From: Halovivax gelatinilyticus
Lineage (GTDB): Archaea; Halobacteriota; Halobacteria; Halobacteriales; Natrialbaceae
NCBI RefSeq assembly: GCF_024300625.1
Contig: NZ_CP101322.1
Coordinates: 695,992 to 759,991, forward strand
Reading direction: 5' to 3'
Length of the DNA stretch: 64,000 nt
Each line of letters begins with the position of its first letter. The first letter of the stretch is position 1. The notes under the pieces were generated by a model that was not told the DNA's origin, did no database searches, and worked only from the letters and a program-made list of their open reading frames with translations. Below, one piece after another: positions 5,300-28,718 of this stretch. A program made the translations under genes and the position numbers.

Positions 5300-5432
5300 G
5301 TCGATGCCCACCTCCGGGAACGGGTAGGCTATTGGGCAGAAAATTTTTCGGTTACGCCCGGAGAGTGTTCGGGAGTGTATATAATCGCCGTAAATTTATT
5401 CGTTTCAGTGCTTGTTCGGCACTGGTCGACCG

Positions 5433-6668
5433 TCATCGAGCGGGCACCCGGTCGATCGCAGAGGCCATCGCTTCCGGGTCCTTCACGTAGCGGATCCGTT
5501 CGAGGGGTACGTCCCAGTGGTGGTGATCGACGGGCGGTCCGCCCCCGCGGTACTCGATCCTGACGGCCCGTCCACAAAACGGCGTGAGAAGGGTGAAGAC
5601 GCTGTGTGTGACCGAGACGGAGTCGATCGCCTCGAGGGGGACGCGCCACTGAACGGCGCGCAGACGGGTATCGTAGGCGACGAGGGTGTCGTCGTAGACC
5701 CGAAACTCGAGGTCACCGTACTCGATCCACACGACAAGGAAGGTGACGCCGTAAACGAACACGAACGTGGCCGTGATCACACCGATCCAGCCCCACAACC
5801 CGCTGTCGAGTCCGACGAGCGTGTGCGTTACCCCGGCCAAGGAGCCGAACACGACCAGTCCGAAAAACAGGGAGAACGGGAGGATTGTTAGCACGGTTGC
5901 CGCTGCTGACACCGCCTGCCGGTTAGTACGGAAGACGGTACGTGGACTGGCGGTCGGCAGTGGTATCTCCTCAACTTCCCAGTCACAGGTGGGATCGAAC
6001 GTGAGGGAGGAGGGGCCGATACCGGCCTCGCGCAGGTCGAAAAGGAACTTCGGGACGATCACAATGGCCACGATCGTGGCGAGGATCTCGGCGGGCATCG
6101 CGAGAACTGATCCGGCCGCGAAGAGGCCGACGAGCGTCGCGTACAATCGCTCCCGAGGTCGGATGCTCTCGACGGACGCTCGCTCGTAGACGCTGTCAAC
6201 CGCCCACGCGGCGACGATGGTGACGTGTTTGGCGACGAGCAACGCAAGGATTAATGCGAGCGAGGGGTCGAGACTCCCGATATCGGGTCGGGTGCCCGGT
6301 GACTCGCCCAGGTAGTAGAAGGCGAAAAACAACGTTCCGAGGCTGGCCACATTGATTAGTGAACGGTACACGTACGCAAGATTTCGTGGGTAGACGTAAA
6401 CGGGGACGAATGGCAACCGGTAGTAGCCACGCTTGTCGATTAAATGTCTATTAATAAATACAAAGCTGTCATGATGAAGAGCGGTCTTGTCTGGGGGGTG
6501 TCCGACGAACGCCTTTTCTGCCATCGTCCGGGTGGTGGCGAGAGCCGTGTCGAGCACGAAGATGACCGCGACGACAGCCGGACTCCACCCAAAGAGGAAA
6601 GTACCGGCGAGTATCGACACGTTTGCCACCACCACGATCAGGAGTAGCATTGCTTGAGTTCGTTCCAT
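5433..6668 (-). CDS. Polytopic membrane protein with C-terminal PH-like domain (DUF6498-like)
   Basis: 411 residues with about seven hydrophobic stretches: residues 8-45, 108-125, 135-155, 180-210, 258-285 and 295-320 approximately. A soluble tail of about 90 residues (from LEFRVYDDTLVAYDTRL) has the alternating strand pattern of bacterial PH-like domains. The middle contains an amphipathic loop with SFVFINRHLIDKRGYY. From memory this is closest to the DUF6498 family; its function is unknown. It lies 140 bases downstream of, and on the same strand as, the halocin C8-like gene, so it is a candidate immunity, export or stress-related partner. An AT-rich run with AATATAATATT directly precedes the ATG. 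Confidence 0.7.
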   Translation of the reverse strand: MERTQAMLLLIVVVANVSILAGTFLFGWSPAVVAVIFVLDTALATTRTMAEKAFVGHPPDKTALHHDSFVFINRHLIDKRGYYRLPFVPVYVYPRNLAYVYRSLINVASLGTLFFAFYYLGESPGTRPDIGSLDPSLALILALLVAKHVTIVAAWAVDSVYERASVESIRPRERLYATLVGLFAAGSVLAMPAEILATIVAIVIVPKFLFDLREAGIGPSSLTFDPTCDWEVEEIPLPTASPRTVFRTNRQAVSAAATVLTILPFSLFFGLVVFGSLAGVTHTLVGLDSGLWGWIGVITATFVFVYGVTFLVVWIEYGDLEFRVYDDTLVAYDTRLRAVQWRVPLEAIDSVSVTHSVFTLLTPFCGRAVRIEYRGGGPPVDHHHWDVPLERIRYVKDPEAMASAIDRVPAR

Positions 6669-6725
6669 AATATTATATTTTCAAAATGTGAATGTTGTTC
6701 AGGTTCTAGAACAGCACATAGTGTA

Positions 6726-6815
6726 TCACAAACTTTTTTTATTAGATAGTTCTTCTAAATCAGGTCCATAACCATCAGGTACATAATTGTGTGTATCTAT
6801 ATATTTGATTAGCAA
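6726..6815 (-). other. Possible 29-codon ORF overlapping the end of the halocin-like gene
   Basis: In another frame, a TTG at 6813-6815 that overlaps the stop codon of the preceding gene opens 29 codons, including NYVPDGYGPDLEELSNKKS, before a TGA at 6726-6728. The composition is plausible for a small acidic protein, but there is no ATG and no family match. It could equally be noncoding 3' sequence of this AT-rich patch. Confidence 0.15.
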
Positions 6816-8686
6816 CGGCCAGCGACTTCCTCGCAGAAGCTTTCCGCTCCCCACTGACTGAATCCTGCAGTATTATCGAGAAAGCTCAGAAGTTCAGCAA
6901 AGAAAAAACCGCATGAAGCCGCGAAAATGAACGACGATATCATTGCAAGACAAATAGCTGACGACGTAGCAGTAATCGCCACTGCCGCTGTGAGGAGAAT
7001 GATGGCGAGACAACCGGCACATCCGAAATTGTTGTCCGCGAGTTCGTCGAACACACCAGCATCACCGAGATCAAGTACAGTACCCGCGAAGTTGGGGGTT
7101 ACCTTCCGCATAAAATCCCAGAATCGACTCCGTGGGAGCTGATCCTGAGCAGCAGCAACGAGTTCGATCAACAGCTCCTGAGAATCCACGATCATGGAAA
7201 GACCCTGGATTGCCAGATCCTCTGCAGCGTCCGAGATCCGCTCTTCGGCCGCTGCGATCGCATCCGACGTGATTTCGGCGACTGTGCCTTTGGCTATTCC
7301 AATCTCCGAGGCCAGCGAGTCCAGCGCACTCCCGAAATAGTCGATAATATCTCCCGGACTCGGAAGGCTCGGGAGTGAGATCCATTGGGGCGAGCTGTCC
7401 GCGTCGTAATTGATCTCGTCGTGGCCGTCAAACAGATTGACGGTTTTTCCCGAGTTCGCATTCATCTGCGCCTCCGATAGTTGTGCTCCGCGTTCGAAGG
7501 TTCGCGTTTCGAACGTATTCGCCGTTTCGATCCCGTCTGTGGCGCTCCCAAGGAGAGATAGTTCGATCGCTTCGGGGTGACCGTCGTCTGCTTCCCAGAT
7601 CAACTCGTATCCAGCATTGGTTACGTCCCACGTCTCGTCTGATCGGGCCAGATTGACCAGGCCGTGGTCTCCTCTCTCGGTATCCGTAATCTGAAAGATA
7701 ACGAGGGTTTTGGCTCCCCCACCGGCCGTCGACCTGTAGTACAGACTTGTCGCATCGTGACGGATTCGGCCATCGACGTCTGCAGCGATCGTCTCGTACT
7801 CCTCAGTTCGTTCGAATACGGCTGCGTTCTGCAGTTTCGAAGACGCGATCGCATCCTTGTGAGCGTCAGCGTCGATCGACAGATCGACTCCAGCGATCGC
7901 CACGCTGGTGACGTCGCCGTAGTATTTGATCTGCTTGGACTCTCCCCCTTCGACCGAAACCGTCGTTTCGGAATTCCTGGTTCGGTCGTGTACGACCCCA
8001 CCGGTTGCTTCGGCGCCGAATTCAACGGTCTCCCCCTCGGGAGCGGAACAGACGATTCGCATATTCTCCGGAACGAACTCGATGGTGGCGCCGGACTCGT
8101 GAGCGATTTCTTTGATATTCCCGTCGAACCGAGCGAGGACGTCGGTACCGCCGGGCCGTACGGAGATCGCACCGTCTTCGTTAGTCTCCGAAGTTCCTTC
8201 AACGACCTTGATGTCGGCTGATGTTCGAACCGTCACCTCATCGCGTTCACCGCTGATTCGAAGGTCTCCAGGAAGTCCAGAAGGGAGGATTTCGTCGACC
8301 GAGATTCGGTCACCATTCTTCCGGACGCTTCGTACTTCACTCGTCGATTCGAAGTACGTAATCTCACCCGCGTACTCGAACGTCGTCCGCCCCGAAATTT
8401 CGCCGGTTATTCTTCGGGAGTTGATTCGAGTTATCCCTTCACCACCGTCGGCTGGATTGATCCGTCCGCTCGCAGAGATGTCGATCTCCGTCCCCGATGG
8501 GGCAGCGACCGTTATCGAATTGTGAGGGAAGGAAGCCACATCAAAGGGCTCACCGTCCACGGAAACTTCAACGTCACCGTCAACGTCGAATTCCGTGAAC
8601 TCCCCACTGAACTCGAATGTGTGCGTGTCGTTTTCGATGGACGACTGGACAGTCCCGTTAGTGACGATTTGAGCTGGTACGCTCAC
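6809..8686 (-). CDS. Large surface-type protein with halocin C8-like cysteine-rich C-terminus
   Basis: The open frame encodes about 625 residues. Residues 1-440 are Thr/Ser/Asp-rich beta-type sequence with THTFEFSGEFTEFDVDGDV, the pattern of haloarchaeal Tat-exported surface proteins. The last ~75 residues are strongly hydrophobic with six cysteines: GCAGC, then AIC, ASC, and a terminal SFC-EEV-AGRC. That arrangement resembles mature halocin C8 (GCSAC at the start, EACNRAGLC at the end), whose precursor is also Tat-exported and whose N-terminal part acts as immunity protein. The GTG start (8684-8686) overlaps the stop of a separate Tat-leader ORF, so the protein as read lacks a signal peptide. 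Either the gene is frameshifted or the two ORFs are coupled. Composition is AT-richer than the flanks. Confidence 0.7.
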   Translation of the reverse strand: MSVPAQIVTNGTVQSSIENDTHTFEFSGEFTEFDVDGDVEVSVDGEPFDVASFPHNSITVAAPSGTEIDISASGRINPADGGEGITRINSRRITGEISGRTTFEYAGEITYFESTSEVRSVRKNGDRISVDEILPSGLPGDLRISGERDEVTVRTSADIKVVEGTSETNEDGAISVRPGGTDVLARFDGNIKEIAHESGATIEFVPENMRIVCSAPEGETVEFGAEATGGVVHDRTRNSETTVSVEGGESKQIKYYGDVTSVAIAGVDLSIDADAHKDAIASSKLQNAAVFERTEEYETIAADVDGRIRHDATSLYYRSTAGGGAKTLVIFQITDTERGDHGLVNLARSDETWDVTNAGYELIWEADDGHPEAIELSLLGSATDGIETANTFETRTFERGAQLSEAQMNANSGKTVNLFDGHDEINYDADSSPQWISLPSLPSPGDIIDYFGSALDSLASEIGIAKGTVAEITSDAIAAAEERISDAAEDLAIQGLSMIVDSQELLIELVAAAQDQLPRSRFWDFMRKVTPNFAGTVLDLGDAGVFDELADNNFGCAGCLAIILLTAAVAITATSSAICLAMISSFIFAASCGFFFAELLSFLDNTAGFSQWGAESFCEEVAGRC

Positions 8687-8913
8687 GCTGTTGAGCGCAC
8701 CCGAACGGAGAAGAGATACTCTGCATCTCCCGTTCCACGGATTGAAACCGTTCGTTCCATGTCACCCGATGACAATCCGGGATCACCTCGCTCCGTCACG
8801 TTGACCAGTCCGCGTTCGCTCCTGGCTCCTGTGACGGCGGATGACAGGGCAAGTCCGCCGGCTGCACCCACCGACCGTAGTACGTTTCTCCTCGACAGAG
8901 AACCCCCTATCAT
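8683..8913 (-). CDS. Tat signal-peptide ORF, probable 5' part of the halocin C8-like gene
   Basis: 76 residues from the ATG at 8911-8913. It starts SLSRRNVLRSVGAAGGLALSS, a clear twin-arginine leader, and continues to SIRGTGDAEYLFSVRV before a TGA at 8683-8685. In intact haloarchaeal relatives the G-T-G-x-x-x-Y-x-F-x-V strand runs straight into a Ser/Thr-rich linker and then YTFSGE-type sequence, which here is found in the next frame. The simplest reading is one gene with a one-base slip near 8690-8710. Coupled translation through GTGA, or a sequencing error, are alternatives. A TATA-like TTTAAATT (8954-8961) lies about 44 bases before the ATG. Confidence 0.7.
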   Translation of the reverse strand: MIGGSLSRRNVLRSVGAAGGLALSSAVTGARSERGLVNVTERGDPGLSSGDMERTVSIRGTGDAEYLFSVRVRSTA

Positions 8914-9540
8914 TTCGTTGATTAGTCATACGTTCACCAAATAGTCGCAAACAATTTAAATCTTACTGATTAGTGATATTAAAAAATGTGGAATGAATTC
9001 TTGGAAAGTAAGCCTTTATAGGATATAGGTGTTAGAAAGTAGCTTAAATGATGTGTTATAGCTATATTTGCTCGGTCTAGGAATCCCACCGGAACTAATG
9101 GTGAGAGAGTTCATTGAATTTCTCTCGAACCGGACACCGCGAAGCACTCAGTGTATATCTATTGAAATATGCGAATCAGGGGAAATCAGCGTACGTGACA
9201 GATGTAATTCACCCGGCAGAGGTGCACCCAACAATATATGCCGATCGACAGTACTGATTCCTCGTTATCGACAGTGAGAAGGCATCTACGCAGGTGAACT
9301 TTATCTGGATAGTCGAAACGCGACCGGGTGAAATGGTGAACAAAGCTTTAGTTCGCCGAAACGGAGAAGAGATTCATAGGCAAAATCCACCACAATCCAC
9401 TATAGGAGTGAGTGACGGAAAAAGAAGGAGAGTCCGCCTAGATAAACACAACAAGTTCGCCCTCGAACCGGATCTGGAGTATCCCACCCGATTCAGTATC
9501 TAGGACTAAGGCCGACGAAACGGAACGAACCGACGCCAGC
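8914..9540. other. AT-rich intergenic region without a recognisable gene
   Basis: About 630 bases between the Tat-leader gene and the end of carB. Apart from the TATA-like box near 8954, two short plus-strand frames exist (9068-9277, 69 codons; 9294-9503, 69 codons, GTG start) with no recognisable domain and an unremarkable composition. No transposase, terminal inverted repeat or RNA gene was identified. Low GC compared with carB marks it as part of the same accessory patch as 4.7-8.9 kb. Confidence 0.4.
8954..8961 (-). promoter_or_regulatory. TATA-like box of the Tat-leader/halocin-like unit
   Basis: On the minus strand this reads ATTTAAATTG, about 44 bases before the ATG at 8913, predicting a start of transcription near 8930 and a short leader. 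It is embedded in an AT-rich stretch, so chance occurrence is possible. Confidence 0.4.
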
Positions 9541-12500
9541 CTATTCGCCCTTCGGCTGGCCCCAGTACTCGTCGCGCTGCGGGCGATCGCTGACCGCCTG
9601 GACGTCGATCGGCTCGCCGCGGTGCTCGCGGGCCTCCAGGGCGGCCGAGGCCGCCTCGTAGGTCGAGAAGTACGGAATCTCCTCTTCGACGGCGACCGAT
9701 AGCAGGTCGCGCTTGCCCGAGACGATCAGGTCGATCTCGCCGCGGCGGGCGGCGTCGATCAGGTCGACCGCGTCGGAGAAGTCGTAGTACGTACTGAAGC
9801 CGTCGGCGAGTTCCTCGCCGGCCTCGCTGTCCGGTTCTGGGAACGCGTCATCGGCCAGGTCCAGAACCATCGTTCCCGACTCGGGGATGGCGTTACCCGC
9901 CGCGGACTGGGCCTTCTCGTAGGCCTTGCCGAACGTGTCGGCGGTGCCCATGACCTCGCCCGTCGACTTCATCTCCGGGCCGAGTCGCGGGTCGCTTCCG
10001 GGCAGTCGGTCGAACGGGAGGACGACCTCCTTGATCGACGTCTGGGCCGGCACCTGCTCGGTGACGTCGAGGTCAGCCAGCGAGTTACCGGCCATCACCT
10101 GCGCGGCGATCTTCGCGATCGGGACGCCCGTCGCCTTCGAGATGAACGGGACGGTTCGCGACGAGCGCGGGTTCGCCTCCAGGACGTACACCTCGCCGTC
10201 TTTGACCGCGAGCTGGACGTTCAGCAGTCCGACGGTATCCAGCGCGCGGGCGATCTCTTCGGCCACCTCGCGCACCCGGCGGTTGACGTCGCGGCCGAGC
10301 GATCGCGGCGGGATCATACACGCCGAGTCGCCGGAGTGAACGCCCGCGCTCTCGACGTGTTCCATGATTCCGCCGATGAGGACGTCCTCGCCGTCGGCGA
10401 CGGCGTCGACGTCGAGTTCGACGGCATCCTCCAGGAATTCGTCGACCAGGATCGGCTTGTCCGGACTCACTCGGACCGCCTCTTCGATGTACGTCTCGAG
10501 TTCGGCGTCGTCGTGAACGATCTCCATCGCGCGGCCGCCGAGGACGTAGGAGGGCCGGACGAGCACGGGGTAGCCGATATCGTGAGCGAGATCGAGCGCC
10601 TCTTCTTTGGAGACGGCCGTTCCGCCCTCCGGCTGGGCGATGCCGAGCTCGTCCATGAGGGCGTTGAAGCGGTCGCGGTCTTCTGCTAGGTCCATCGCCT
10701 CGACGGAGGTACCGAGCACCGCACAGTCGAGACCGCGGCGTTCGAGTTCGGCTTCGAGCGGTTCGCCGACGTTGACGGAGGTCTGACCGCCGAACTGGAC
10801 CATCACGCCGTCGGCGCCGGTCGCCTCCGCGGCGTCGGCGACTTCCTCGGCCGTGATCGGCTCGAAGAAGAGCCCGTCGGAGGTGTCGTAGTCCGTCGAG
10901 ACCGTCTCGGGATTGTTGTTCACGACGTGCGCGTCGATCCCCAGTTCGCGAAGCGCCTGCACGGCGTGGACCGCGCAGTAGTCGAACTCGACGCCCTGGC
11001 CGATCCGGATCGGACCACCGCCGACGACGATCACGCTCTCGACGTCGGGGTCGATCTCCAGTTCGCTCGCCGCCCGCGAGACGCGTTCGGTCGGGGCGCC
11101 GTCGTCGGTCGCGCCTCCCCCGGCGGTCCCGGGGATGGCCGTACCGGCGAGCGCAGATTGCCGGGCTGAGTAGTAGTACGGCGTCTGGGCTTCGAACTCG
11201 CCCGCACAGGTGTCGACCTGTTTGTACGTTCGCTCGGGGACGGCCGATTCGACCGACTCGACGTCGGTGTCTGCCAGTTCGGCGACGGCCGCGTTCGTCC
11301 GGCCGGCGGCGGCCGCCTCGGTCACCTCGCCCTCCCGGGCGGCGCTGTCGGCCGTCGCGATCCGTTCGAACCGCTCGACGTACCACTCGTGGATGCCGGT
11401 CAGCTCACAGAGGTCGGAGACGGTGTAGCCGCGGTCGAACGCCTCGAGCATCGCGTACGGACGATCCGGCGTCGGTTTCTCGAGGAAGTCGGTCTCGAGG
11501 TCCCCGTCCGAGACGTCCGCGAAGTCGGCGCTCGGATCGTACTCGGTCGAGCGAAGCGCTTTGAGCAGGCTCTCCTCGAACGTCCGGCCGATCGCCATCG
11601 CCTCGCCGGTCGACTTCATCGCCGTCGTCAGCTCGAAGTCGACGTCGTCGAACTTGTCCTTGGGCCACCGGGGCACCTTCGTGACCACGTAGTCGATCGC
11701 CGGCTCGAACGCGGCGGTCGTCTCGCCGGTGATCTCGTTTTCGATCTCGTGGAGGCGCTTGCCGAGAGCCACCTTCGCGGTGACGCGTGCGATCGGGTAG
11801 CCGGTCGCCTTCGAGGCGAGCGCCGACGAGCGCGAGACGCGCGGGTTGACCTCGACGACGCGGTACTCGCCGCCGGGGGTGCCGTCGTCGCGCCAGGCGA
11901 ACTGGATGTTACAGCCGCCCTGGATGCCGAGTTCGCGGATGACGTCGAGCGCCGCGGTGCGCATCTCCTGGTGGCCGGGGTCGGGAATGACCTGACTGGG
12001 CGTGACGACCGTCGACTCGCCCGTGTGGATCCCCATCGGATCGAGATTCTCCATGTTGCAGATGATGATACAGGAGTCGTCGGCGTCGCGCATCACCTCG
12101 TACTCGAGTTCGATCCAGCCGGCGATCGACTCGGTGATCAACACCTCGTTGTTCCGAGAGAGGCGCAGTCCCTTCCGGACGCGCTCGATCAACTCGTCCA
12201 TCTCGGAGACGACGCCGGAACCGGAGCCACCGAGCGTGTAGGTCGTCCGGGCGATGACCGGTAATCCGCCGACGTCGTCGACGGCGCCCTCGACGCGCTC
12301 GCGCAGGTCGGTTTCGTTCAGTTCGGCGACGGACTCGCCCTCGTCTAGGGTGATCGTCGTCGAGCGCGGGACCGGCTGGCCGATCGACTCCATCCGCTGG
12401 CGAAAGAGGTCACGATCTTCGGTCGCGTAGATGGTGTCGAGCGGCGTCCCCATGATCTCGACGTCGTGTTCGTCGAGGACGCCCTCCTCTGCGAGTTCGG

Positions 12501-28094: not shown

Positions 28095-28718
28095 CTACAC
28101 TGGGCTAAACGTATCGAAGTGAAGGCCCGAGATCCGCTCTCCTCGTTCCATATTCGCAGTTGTGGTGACAAACTCGTCTGAACCTCCGATGCATAGCGAC
28201 GCTTGATTGAACCACCCACCGTGACAATCCCAGAACCCGATTGACAAAAGGTTTCCATCCGTGTCGATAATGTCCGGAACAATGATCGTGCTTATAACAG
28301 CACAACCAACTGCACCAATCGCAATTCCAACAAGTCCACCAACGGCTCCAATTGCGGCACAGACCGCAGATGCTATTAAGGCATTTGAGAAATCACCCAG
28401 CGAGTCCCCGAATTCCATCGCGATCCCAGCCTCGTAATGGTTCGAGTAGACGTGTCCACCACAGTCACCGAGTCGTCGACCGAAACCTTGGTAGTCGGTG
28501 ATGATATCGTTGTGCCCACTCAGTGGTTCTACTGCGTCACTATTGACCTCCTCACGACCCACCGACGAACGGTATTGCTCGTGAGAGACTGTCTTCGCTT
28601 GTTTATCGACAATGAAGACGTCAGCGACTTTTTCATGGACGTGTTTGACGATGTATTCGTCACCCGAGTCTACCAACACCTCACCAATGTGAAACGAGAC
28701 GGCGTCCGCACCGACCAT
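28095..28718 (-). CDS. Bacteriocin-like ORF with hydrophobic Gly-zipper core, chimeric N-terminus
   Basis: 207 codons. The first ~11 ([11 protein letters not shown]) belong to the ADH synthase remnant; unrelated sequence follows ([21 protein letters not shown]). The C-terminal half has a 45-residue Ala/Gly/Ile-rich segment with [20 protein letters not shown] and [10 protein letters not shown], flanked by cysteines in GDCGGH, AVC, VGC, FWDC and SLCIGG. This resembles pore-forming class II or halocin-type peptides in precursor form. No Tat or Sec leader is visible, so the true N-terminus was probably lost at the junction. A low-GC small membrane protein gene follows. Expression could come from trp operon read-through. 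Confidence 0.5.

Follow-up and report, generated by a model that had tools for sequence, protein, structure and literature searches.

A 64,000-nucleotide stretch of the Halovivax gelatinilyticus genome (contig NZ_CP101322.1, positions 695,992 to 759,991; hereafter, the window) carries two adjacent genes that we read as a horizontally acquired antagonism cassette, in which a giant precursor of the halocin C8 type is paired with a DUF6498/PH membrane protein that would protect the producer. We give this reading a probability of about 0.7. The body of the precursor is an open frame of 625 amino acids (aa) at positions 6809 to 8686 on the reverse strand, and its partner, a 411-aa protein with multiple transmembrane (TM) segments, lies at 5433 to 6668 on the same strand. 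The original prediction had described the former as a large modular precursor whose last ca. 75 residues resemble halocin C8, with a surface-type region that delivers or guards the toxic peptide.

Relatives were sought with a profile built from three sequences in 391 genomes sampled from the class. Intact homologues of 668 to 706 aa were found in ten other genomes, among them Natrinema gari JCM 14663, Halorussus amylolyticus YC93, and Haloferax larsenii JCM 13917. The profile search of 393 genomes drawn from the phylum gave no new homologues, and within its own genome the 625-aa open reading frame (ORF) had no full match other than itself. Every intact relative (10 of 10) begins with an RR-type twin-arginine translocation (Tat) signal and ends in a cysteine-rich domain. 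Three other loci (G047, G019, and G029) keep only the C-terminal part of the precursor, so that, together with the window, the gene is broken at 4 of the 14 loci. The G019 remnant adjoins an IS66 transposase, and a glycosyltransferase-type gene lies upstream of that in G029; the gene upstream of the G047 remnant is a transposase as judged by eye only, Pfam giving it no name. The alignment used below (A3; n = 13) combines the window protein with nine intact relatives and the three remnants, the tenth intact sequence (L157) having been left out as nearly identical to L156.

The similarity to halocin C8 is clearest in a hydrophobic six-cysteine domain at residues 551 to 625 (positions 6812 to 7036, reverse strand), defined by A3, hhalign, and shuffling. 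The order of elements first described there, GCAGC followed by a hydrophobic core and SFC...AGRC, was found as such, the protein ending in SFCEEVAGRC. Its cysteines (C556, C559, C579, C592, C618, and C625) are spaced CxxC-x19-C-x12-C-x25-C-x6-C and are the sole invariant columns of the alignment. Across the family, the spacing is CxxC, 19, C, 12 to 13, C, ca. 25, C, 5 to 6, C, the same as in halocin C8. Halocin C8 itself, which we recognize in L063, has this cysteine skeleton plus four more cysteines. The 283-aa precursor in L064 and the literature (PMC11509114) agree with that assignment. When the C-terminal stretch was shuffled, the cysteine pattern, with some slack allowed, arose in 3 of 1,000,000 cases.

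In profile comparison, the C-terminal domain matched the halocin C8 domains with a probability of 96% (P = 4.9e-9; score, 49.2); among 200 column permutations, the highest score was 16.0, and reversing the profile gave 13.6. Masking every cysteine still left a score of 22.3, against 11.4 or less in the controls. The closeness to halocin C8 proposed at the outset is thus borne out, and homology of the two domains is supported at the level of sequence. A chance match driven by the cysteines alone is ruled out by the shuffles and permutations, as is an ordinary C-terminal membrane anchor by the alignment of six invariant cysteines to halocin C8 and by a similarity that outlives their masking. TIGR04449 matches 5 of the 13 sequences, all under its 24-bit cutoff. 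The best of them (20.2 bits) is the 74-aa G019 remnant beside the IS66 element (L162:5051-5275), which is intermediate between the large-precursor family and halocin C8 and, as judged from its sequence, is a bridge between the two. The predicted C-terminal peptides (7.3 to 7.8 kDa; isoelectric point [pI], ca. 4; grand average of hydropathy [GRAVY], 1.0 to 1.2) resemble halocin C8 (7.4 kDa, 4.1, and 0.9, respectively).

A second region of homology precedes the first one, in the order found in halocin C8. Residues 277 to 405 (positions 7472 to 7858, reverse strand) align to residues 50 to 185 of halocin C8 precursors, that is, to the HalI part (hhalign P = 3.5e-10; score, 79, versus 22.4 for the best permutation). 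Pfam PF22862 (Hac8_like_N) matches 4 of the 13 sequences, all below the cutoff (best, 25.4 bits versus a cutoff of 27); the best match is at residues 359 to 451 of a Natrinema protein (L085), with an E value of 2.2e-5. AlphaFold places helices at residues 277 to 291 and 295 to 303, a helix-loop-helix at the start of the HalI-like domain, with modest or low confidence. Mei 2008, cited by title in PMC11509114, reportedly found such an element at the N terminus of HalI to be essential for immunity. The surface region had been thought to sit in place of the halocin C8 immunity domain, and this is incorrect because a HalI-like domain is present, with ca. 275 residues of beta modules placed ahead of it. 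Between the HalI-like and six-cysteine domains lies a linker with a helical segment (residues 406 to 550; positions 7037 to 7471, reverse strand), drawn from low-confidence modeled secondary structure and A3.

The additional N-terminal part (residues 1 to 275; positions 7862 to 8686, reverse strand) consists of repeats of a beta module of ca. 70 aa, recognized from hidden Markov model (HMM) matches, the Pfam content of other carriers, and AlphaFold strands of moderate confidence. The HMM shows the module recurring in other exported haloarchaeal proteins, with up to seven matches per protein, where it co-occurs with right-handed beta-helix domains, a polysaccharide deacetylase, and subtilase plus GH26 domains. 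Carriers include L006, L135, L136, L141, L143, and L146, and Pfam gave the module no name. This company fits a binding or surface (matrix-binding) type of module, and we regard the recurring unit as a candidate binding domain. With the Tat signals of the relatives, the beta module, the HalI-like domain, and the cysteine domain, the modular, exported-type architecture that had been anticipated is supported.

The second gene accompanies the precursor throughout. A partner of ca. 410 aa lies on the same strand, 50 to 175 bases downstream, in all ten intact relatives; it also adjoins what is left of the precursor at the three truncated loci, making 13 of 13 related loci, and is found in the window. 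At all 14 loci, including the four with a broken precursor, the partner is intact. DUF6498 (PF20108) was detected in 14 of 17 members of the partner family (best E value, 6.3e-17) and the bacterial PH-like domain bPH_2 (PF03703) in 4 of 17; the window protein itself has a Pfam match with an E value of only 0.2, and we tentatively place it in the DUF6498 family with a C-terminal bacterial PH-like domain from linkage, the Pfam matches of its family, and its model. In that model, about eight long helices precede a beta domain at the C terminus, which has PH/PTB-like Foldseek matches. None of 18 classical halocin C8 loci has a DUF6498-type partner within 1.5 kb, the lone apparent exception (L077) being the G019 remnant of the large-precursor family. 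In a tree of 41 partner-type proteins, those linked to a precursor are scattered over several clades, the majority of which also contain copies lacking a nearby precursor. Orphan homologues that group with linked partners and have no precursor nearby are L094:2500-4032, L083:5171-6520, L105, L108, L100, and L119.

Both genes reside in an insertion at approximately 5316 to 9544, delimited by composition and by synteny with four sister genomes. Its GC content is ca. 55%, against ca. 65% in the surroundings. The cassette, ca. 4.2 kb in length and lying between 5315 and 9545 of the window, is missing from all four same-genus genomes compared; in three, the homologous flanks are ca. 100 bases apart, and in the fourth they enclose ca. 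2.5 kb of unrelated genes. At the insertion site of one genome of the genus (G001; L168:8800-11354), there are two similar small, exported, lipoprotein-like genes of 141 aa each, and this site beside carB may be a hot spot for integration. A relative queried against PLSDB gave no match to a plasmid. The two-gene cassette was probably acquired horizontally. The distances among C termini correlate with those among partners (r = 0.88; Mantel P of ca. 5e-5), as do those among N-terminal modules (0.95), and these parallel distances indicate joint inheritance of the whole cassette. We found no evidence for a polymorphic toxin with swapped C termini, since all relatives bear a C8-like C terminus and the correlations are 0.88 to 0.95.

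The window copy departs from its intact relatives at the start of the gene. An ATG at 8913 opens a 76-aa ORF (positions 8683 to 8913, reverse strand) encoding a Tat signal peptide, MIGGSLSRRNVLRSVGAAGG, in a different frame from that of the 625-aa ORF, which itself has no export signal. Frame translation and alignment to the N termini of intact relatives identify this ORF as the out-of-frame N terminus of the precursor gene, pointing to the Tat-signal ATG, upstream of the ORF at 6809 to 8686, as the real start. Because signal and body correspond to one continuous protein in the intact relatives, the window copy appears to be broken by a one-base frameshift near 8690 to 8700, or a base call is wrong; the original prediction did not note this break behind a Tat signal. 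No split frames were found in the conserved genes of the first 20 kb compared with the four sister genomes, so a generally poor, indel-rich assembly is unsupported as the cause; a single error may nonetheless account for the shift, and the genome is 95.5% complete versus 99% in the sister genomes. Programmed frameshifting was judged unlikely, given that a classical slippery site was not seen and that all intact relatives use a single frame. Probably, then, this strain no longer secretes the precursor, unless the base call is wrong, and it has probably had its weapon disarmed and its shield kept.

The cassette in the window could be a decaying remnant without present function, a reading that we put at slightly less than an even chance and that is compatible with an antagonistic role in the relatives. 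The one-base shift between signal and body, the low-GC insertion, and the unbroken state of the neighboring conserved genes, which leaves poor assembly without obvious signs, all favor it. Against decay, the remaining 625 codons of the precursor and the 411 codons of the partner are fully open, and the shift may be a single sequencing error in a genome of somewhat lower completeness than its sisters.

What the partner does bears on the second alternative, in which the precursor is a halocin-type toxin, while the membrane protein serves in export or maturation and immunity resides in the HalI-like domain, as in halocin C8. In the account of Sun 2005 and Mei 2008 given in PMC11509114, it is HalI that confers immunity, and the helix-loop-helix region is retained here. 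However, the Tat signals remove the need for a dedicated exporter, the partner is kept at the four loci with a broken precursor and also occurs where there is no precursor at all, and the 18 classical halocin C8 loci lack it. We therefore consider an export or maturation role unlikely. Loss of the toxin with retention of immunity is the usual pattern for toxin-immunity pairs. Since the partner survives breakage of the precursor and is also found by itself, it is probably the immunity protein of the producer, as judged from its position and the pattern of loss. The partner, overlooked in the original prediction, is a better candidate than the surface region for guarding the producer. Orphan DUF6498/PH homologues are possible immunity genes as well.

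The third alternative, a secreted surface or matrix protein with a structural or membrane-attaching cysteine-rich C terminus, an anchor or export partner as its neighbor, and no toxin, would suit a beta module common to secreted hydrolases and beta-helix proteins and the strong hydrophobic stretch at residues 554 to 572, but it is quite improbable in view of two distinct halocin C8 domains that stand in the correct order, six invariant cysteines instead of a simple TM segment with a basic tail, a relative (L085) without any hydrophobic stretch that passes as TM, and a partner that, unlike a dedicated anchor, survives loss of the precursor and occurs alone.

Several observations weigh against an antagonism cassette. 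The window protein has six cysteines (6 of the 10 halocin C8 positions), not ten, and its relatives mostly have six to eight. Neither PF22862 nor TIGR04449 matches the window protein itself, and Pfam and NCBIfam gave nothing significant when it was searched alone; public domain models thus miss the precursor in the window copy and stay under cutoff in the relatives. The AlphaFold model of the precursor is of low confidence over its C-terminal half; a PDB structure search with it gave no match with an E value of <0.001, and a profile search of solved structures gave no match. The linkage and loss pattern of the partner could also suit an exporter or processing factor, and the HalI-like domain itself might already give immunity. 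Export, cleavage, killing, and immunity are inferences by analogy with known haloarchaeal precursors.

The antagonism cassette would operate as follows. The complete precursor would comprise a Tat signal, repeated beta modules, a HalI-like prodomain, and a helical linker and would end in a hydrophobic peptide of the disulfide type, ca. 70 to 75 residues long. By analogy with halocin C8, whose precursor passes through Tat and yields HalI plus a 76-aa peptide (PMC11509114), the folded protein would leave the cell through Tat, and the prodomain would keep it inactive. An extracellular cut would then free the C-terminal peptide, as in halocin C8 and in certain haloarchaeal precursors activated by secreted proteases (PMC12893001). 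The freed peptide would attack the membranes of related haloarchaea, and the DUF6498/PH protein would shield the producer. The extra binding-type modules suggest that the peptides may be retained at, or directed to, a surface instead of diffusing freely. We see an even chance that these loci form a distinct mobile branch of giant halocin C8-type precursors with surface- or matrix-binding modules and dedicated DUF6498-PH immunity proteins, the orphans being a reservoir of halocin immunity. If so, a hitherto unannotated membrane family would be linked to antagonism, and DUF6498, through orphan copies and strains with disarmed precursors, would be a previously unrecognized store of halocin immunity. 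A separate, multi-membrane-spanning partner would offer a concrete stand-alone immunity candidate for the halocin C8 peptide class, and the window locus with its intact relatives makes up a candidate toxin-immunity pair open to test in cultivated strains with intact copies.

Two other proteins of this genome deserve mention. A second halocin C8-like protein (G000:C1:2075990-2076187; L031:793-1719), Tat exported and of classical length (308 aa), scores 25.9 bits with TIGR04449, over the cutoff, and has no DUF6498 partner. In the window, a 207-aa ORF at 28095 to 28718 (reverse strand) lies in another low-GC patch (GC, ca. 0.51); it has a glycine-rich hydrophobic stretch and several cysteines and may be another peptide-toxin-like protein. 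The archaeal-toxin survey of Makarova (mBio, 2019) reportedly enlarged the halocin C8 family.

Among known systems, bacterial polymorphic toxins (PMC3482391) are alike in having an exported protein of modular build that carries its effector at the C terminus, an adjoining immunity gene, and remnants made of a C terminus plus immunity gene, but the exchange of C termini is not seen in the large precursors. Halocin H4 and HFX_0892 (PMC12893001) share a secreted latent precursor from which, as we infer here, an antimicrobial piece would be cut extracellularly. In HFX_0892, however, it is the N-terminal piece that is released, and no halocin C8 domain is reported there; the likeness drawn here is one of description. 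The partner probably belongs to the broad haloarchaeal family of DUF6498/bPH_2 membrane proteins, in which precursor-linked members are spread over several clades, mostly mixed with unlinked ones. The closest system is halocin C8 (ProC8/HalI/HalC8; TIGR04449 and PF22862), described as the archaeal peptide antibiotic that is best characterized in molecular terms, with immunity placed in its own precursor (PMC11509114). The two have in common a Tat signal (in the intact relatives), a HalI-like domain followed by a hydrophobic cysteine-rich peptide of ca. 75 residues, and the spacing of six cysteines. They differ in the length of the precursor (670 to 700 aa here versus ca. 283), in the beta-module region of ca. 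275 aa added ahead of the HalI-like domain, in the number of cysteines (6 to 8 versus 10), in the membrane gene downstream, and in scores under curated cutoffs. Since neither the 24-bit cutoff nor the ten-cysteine pattern is reached, we do not count the large precursor as a member of the curated halocin C8 family; it is homologous to halocin C8 and very probably works alike.
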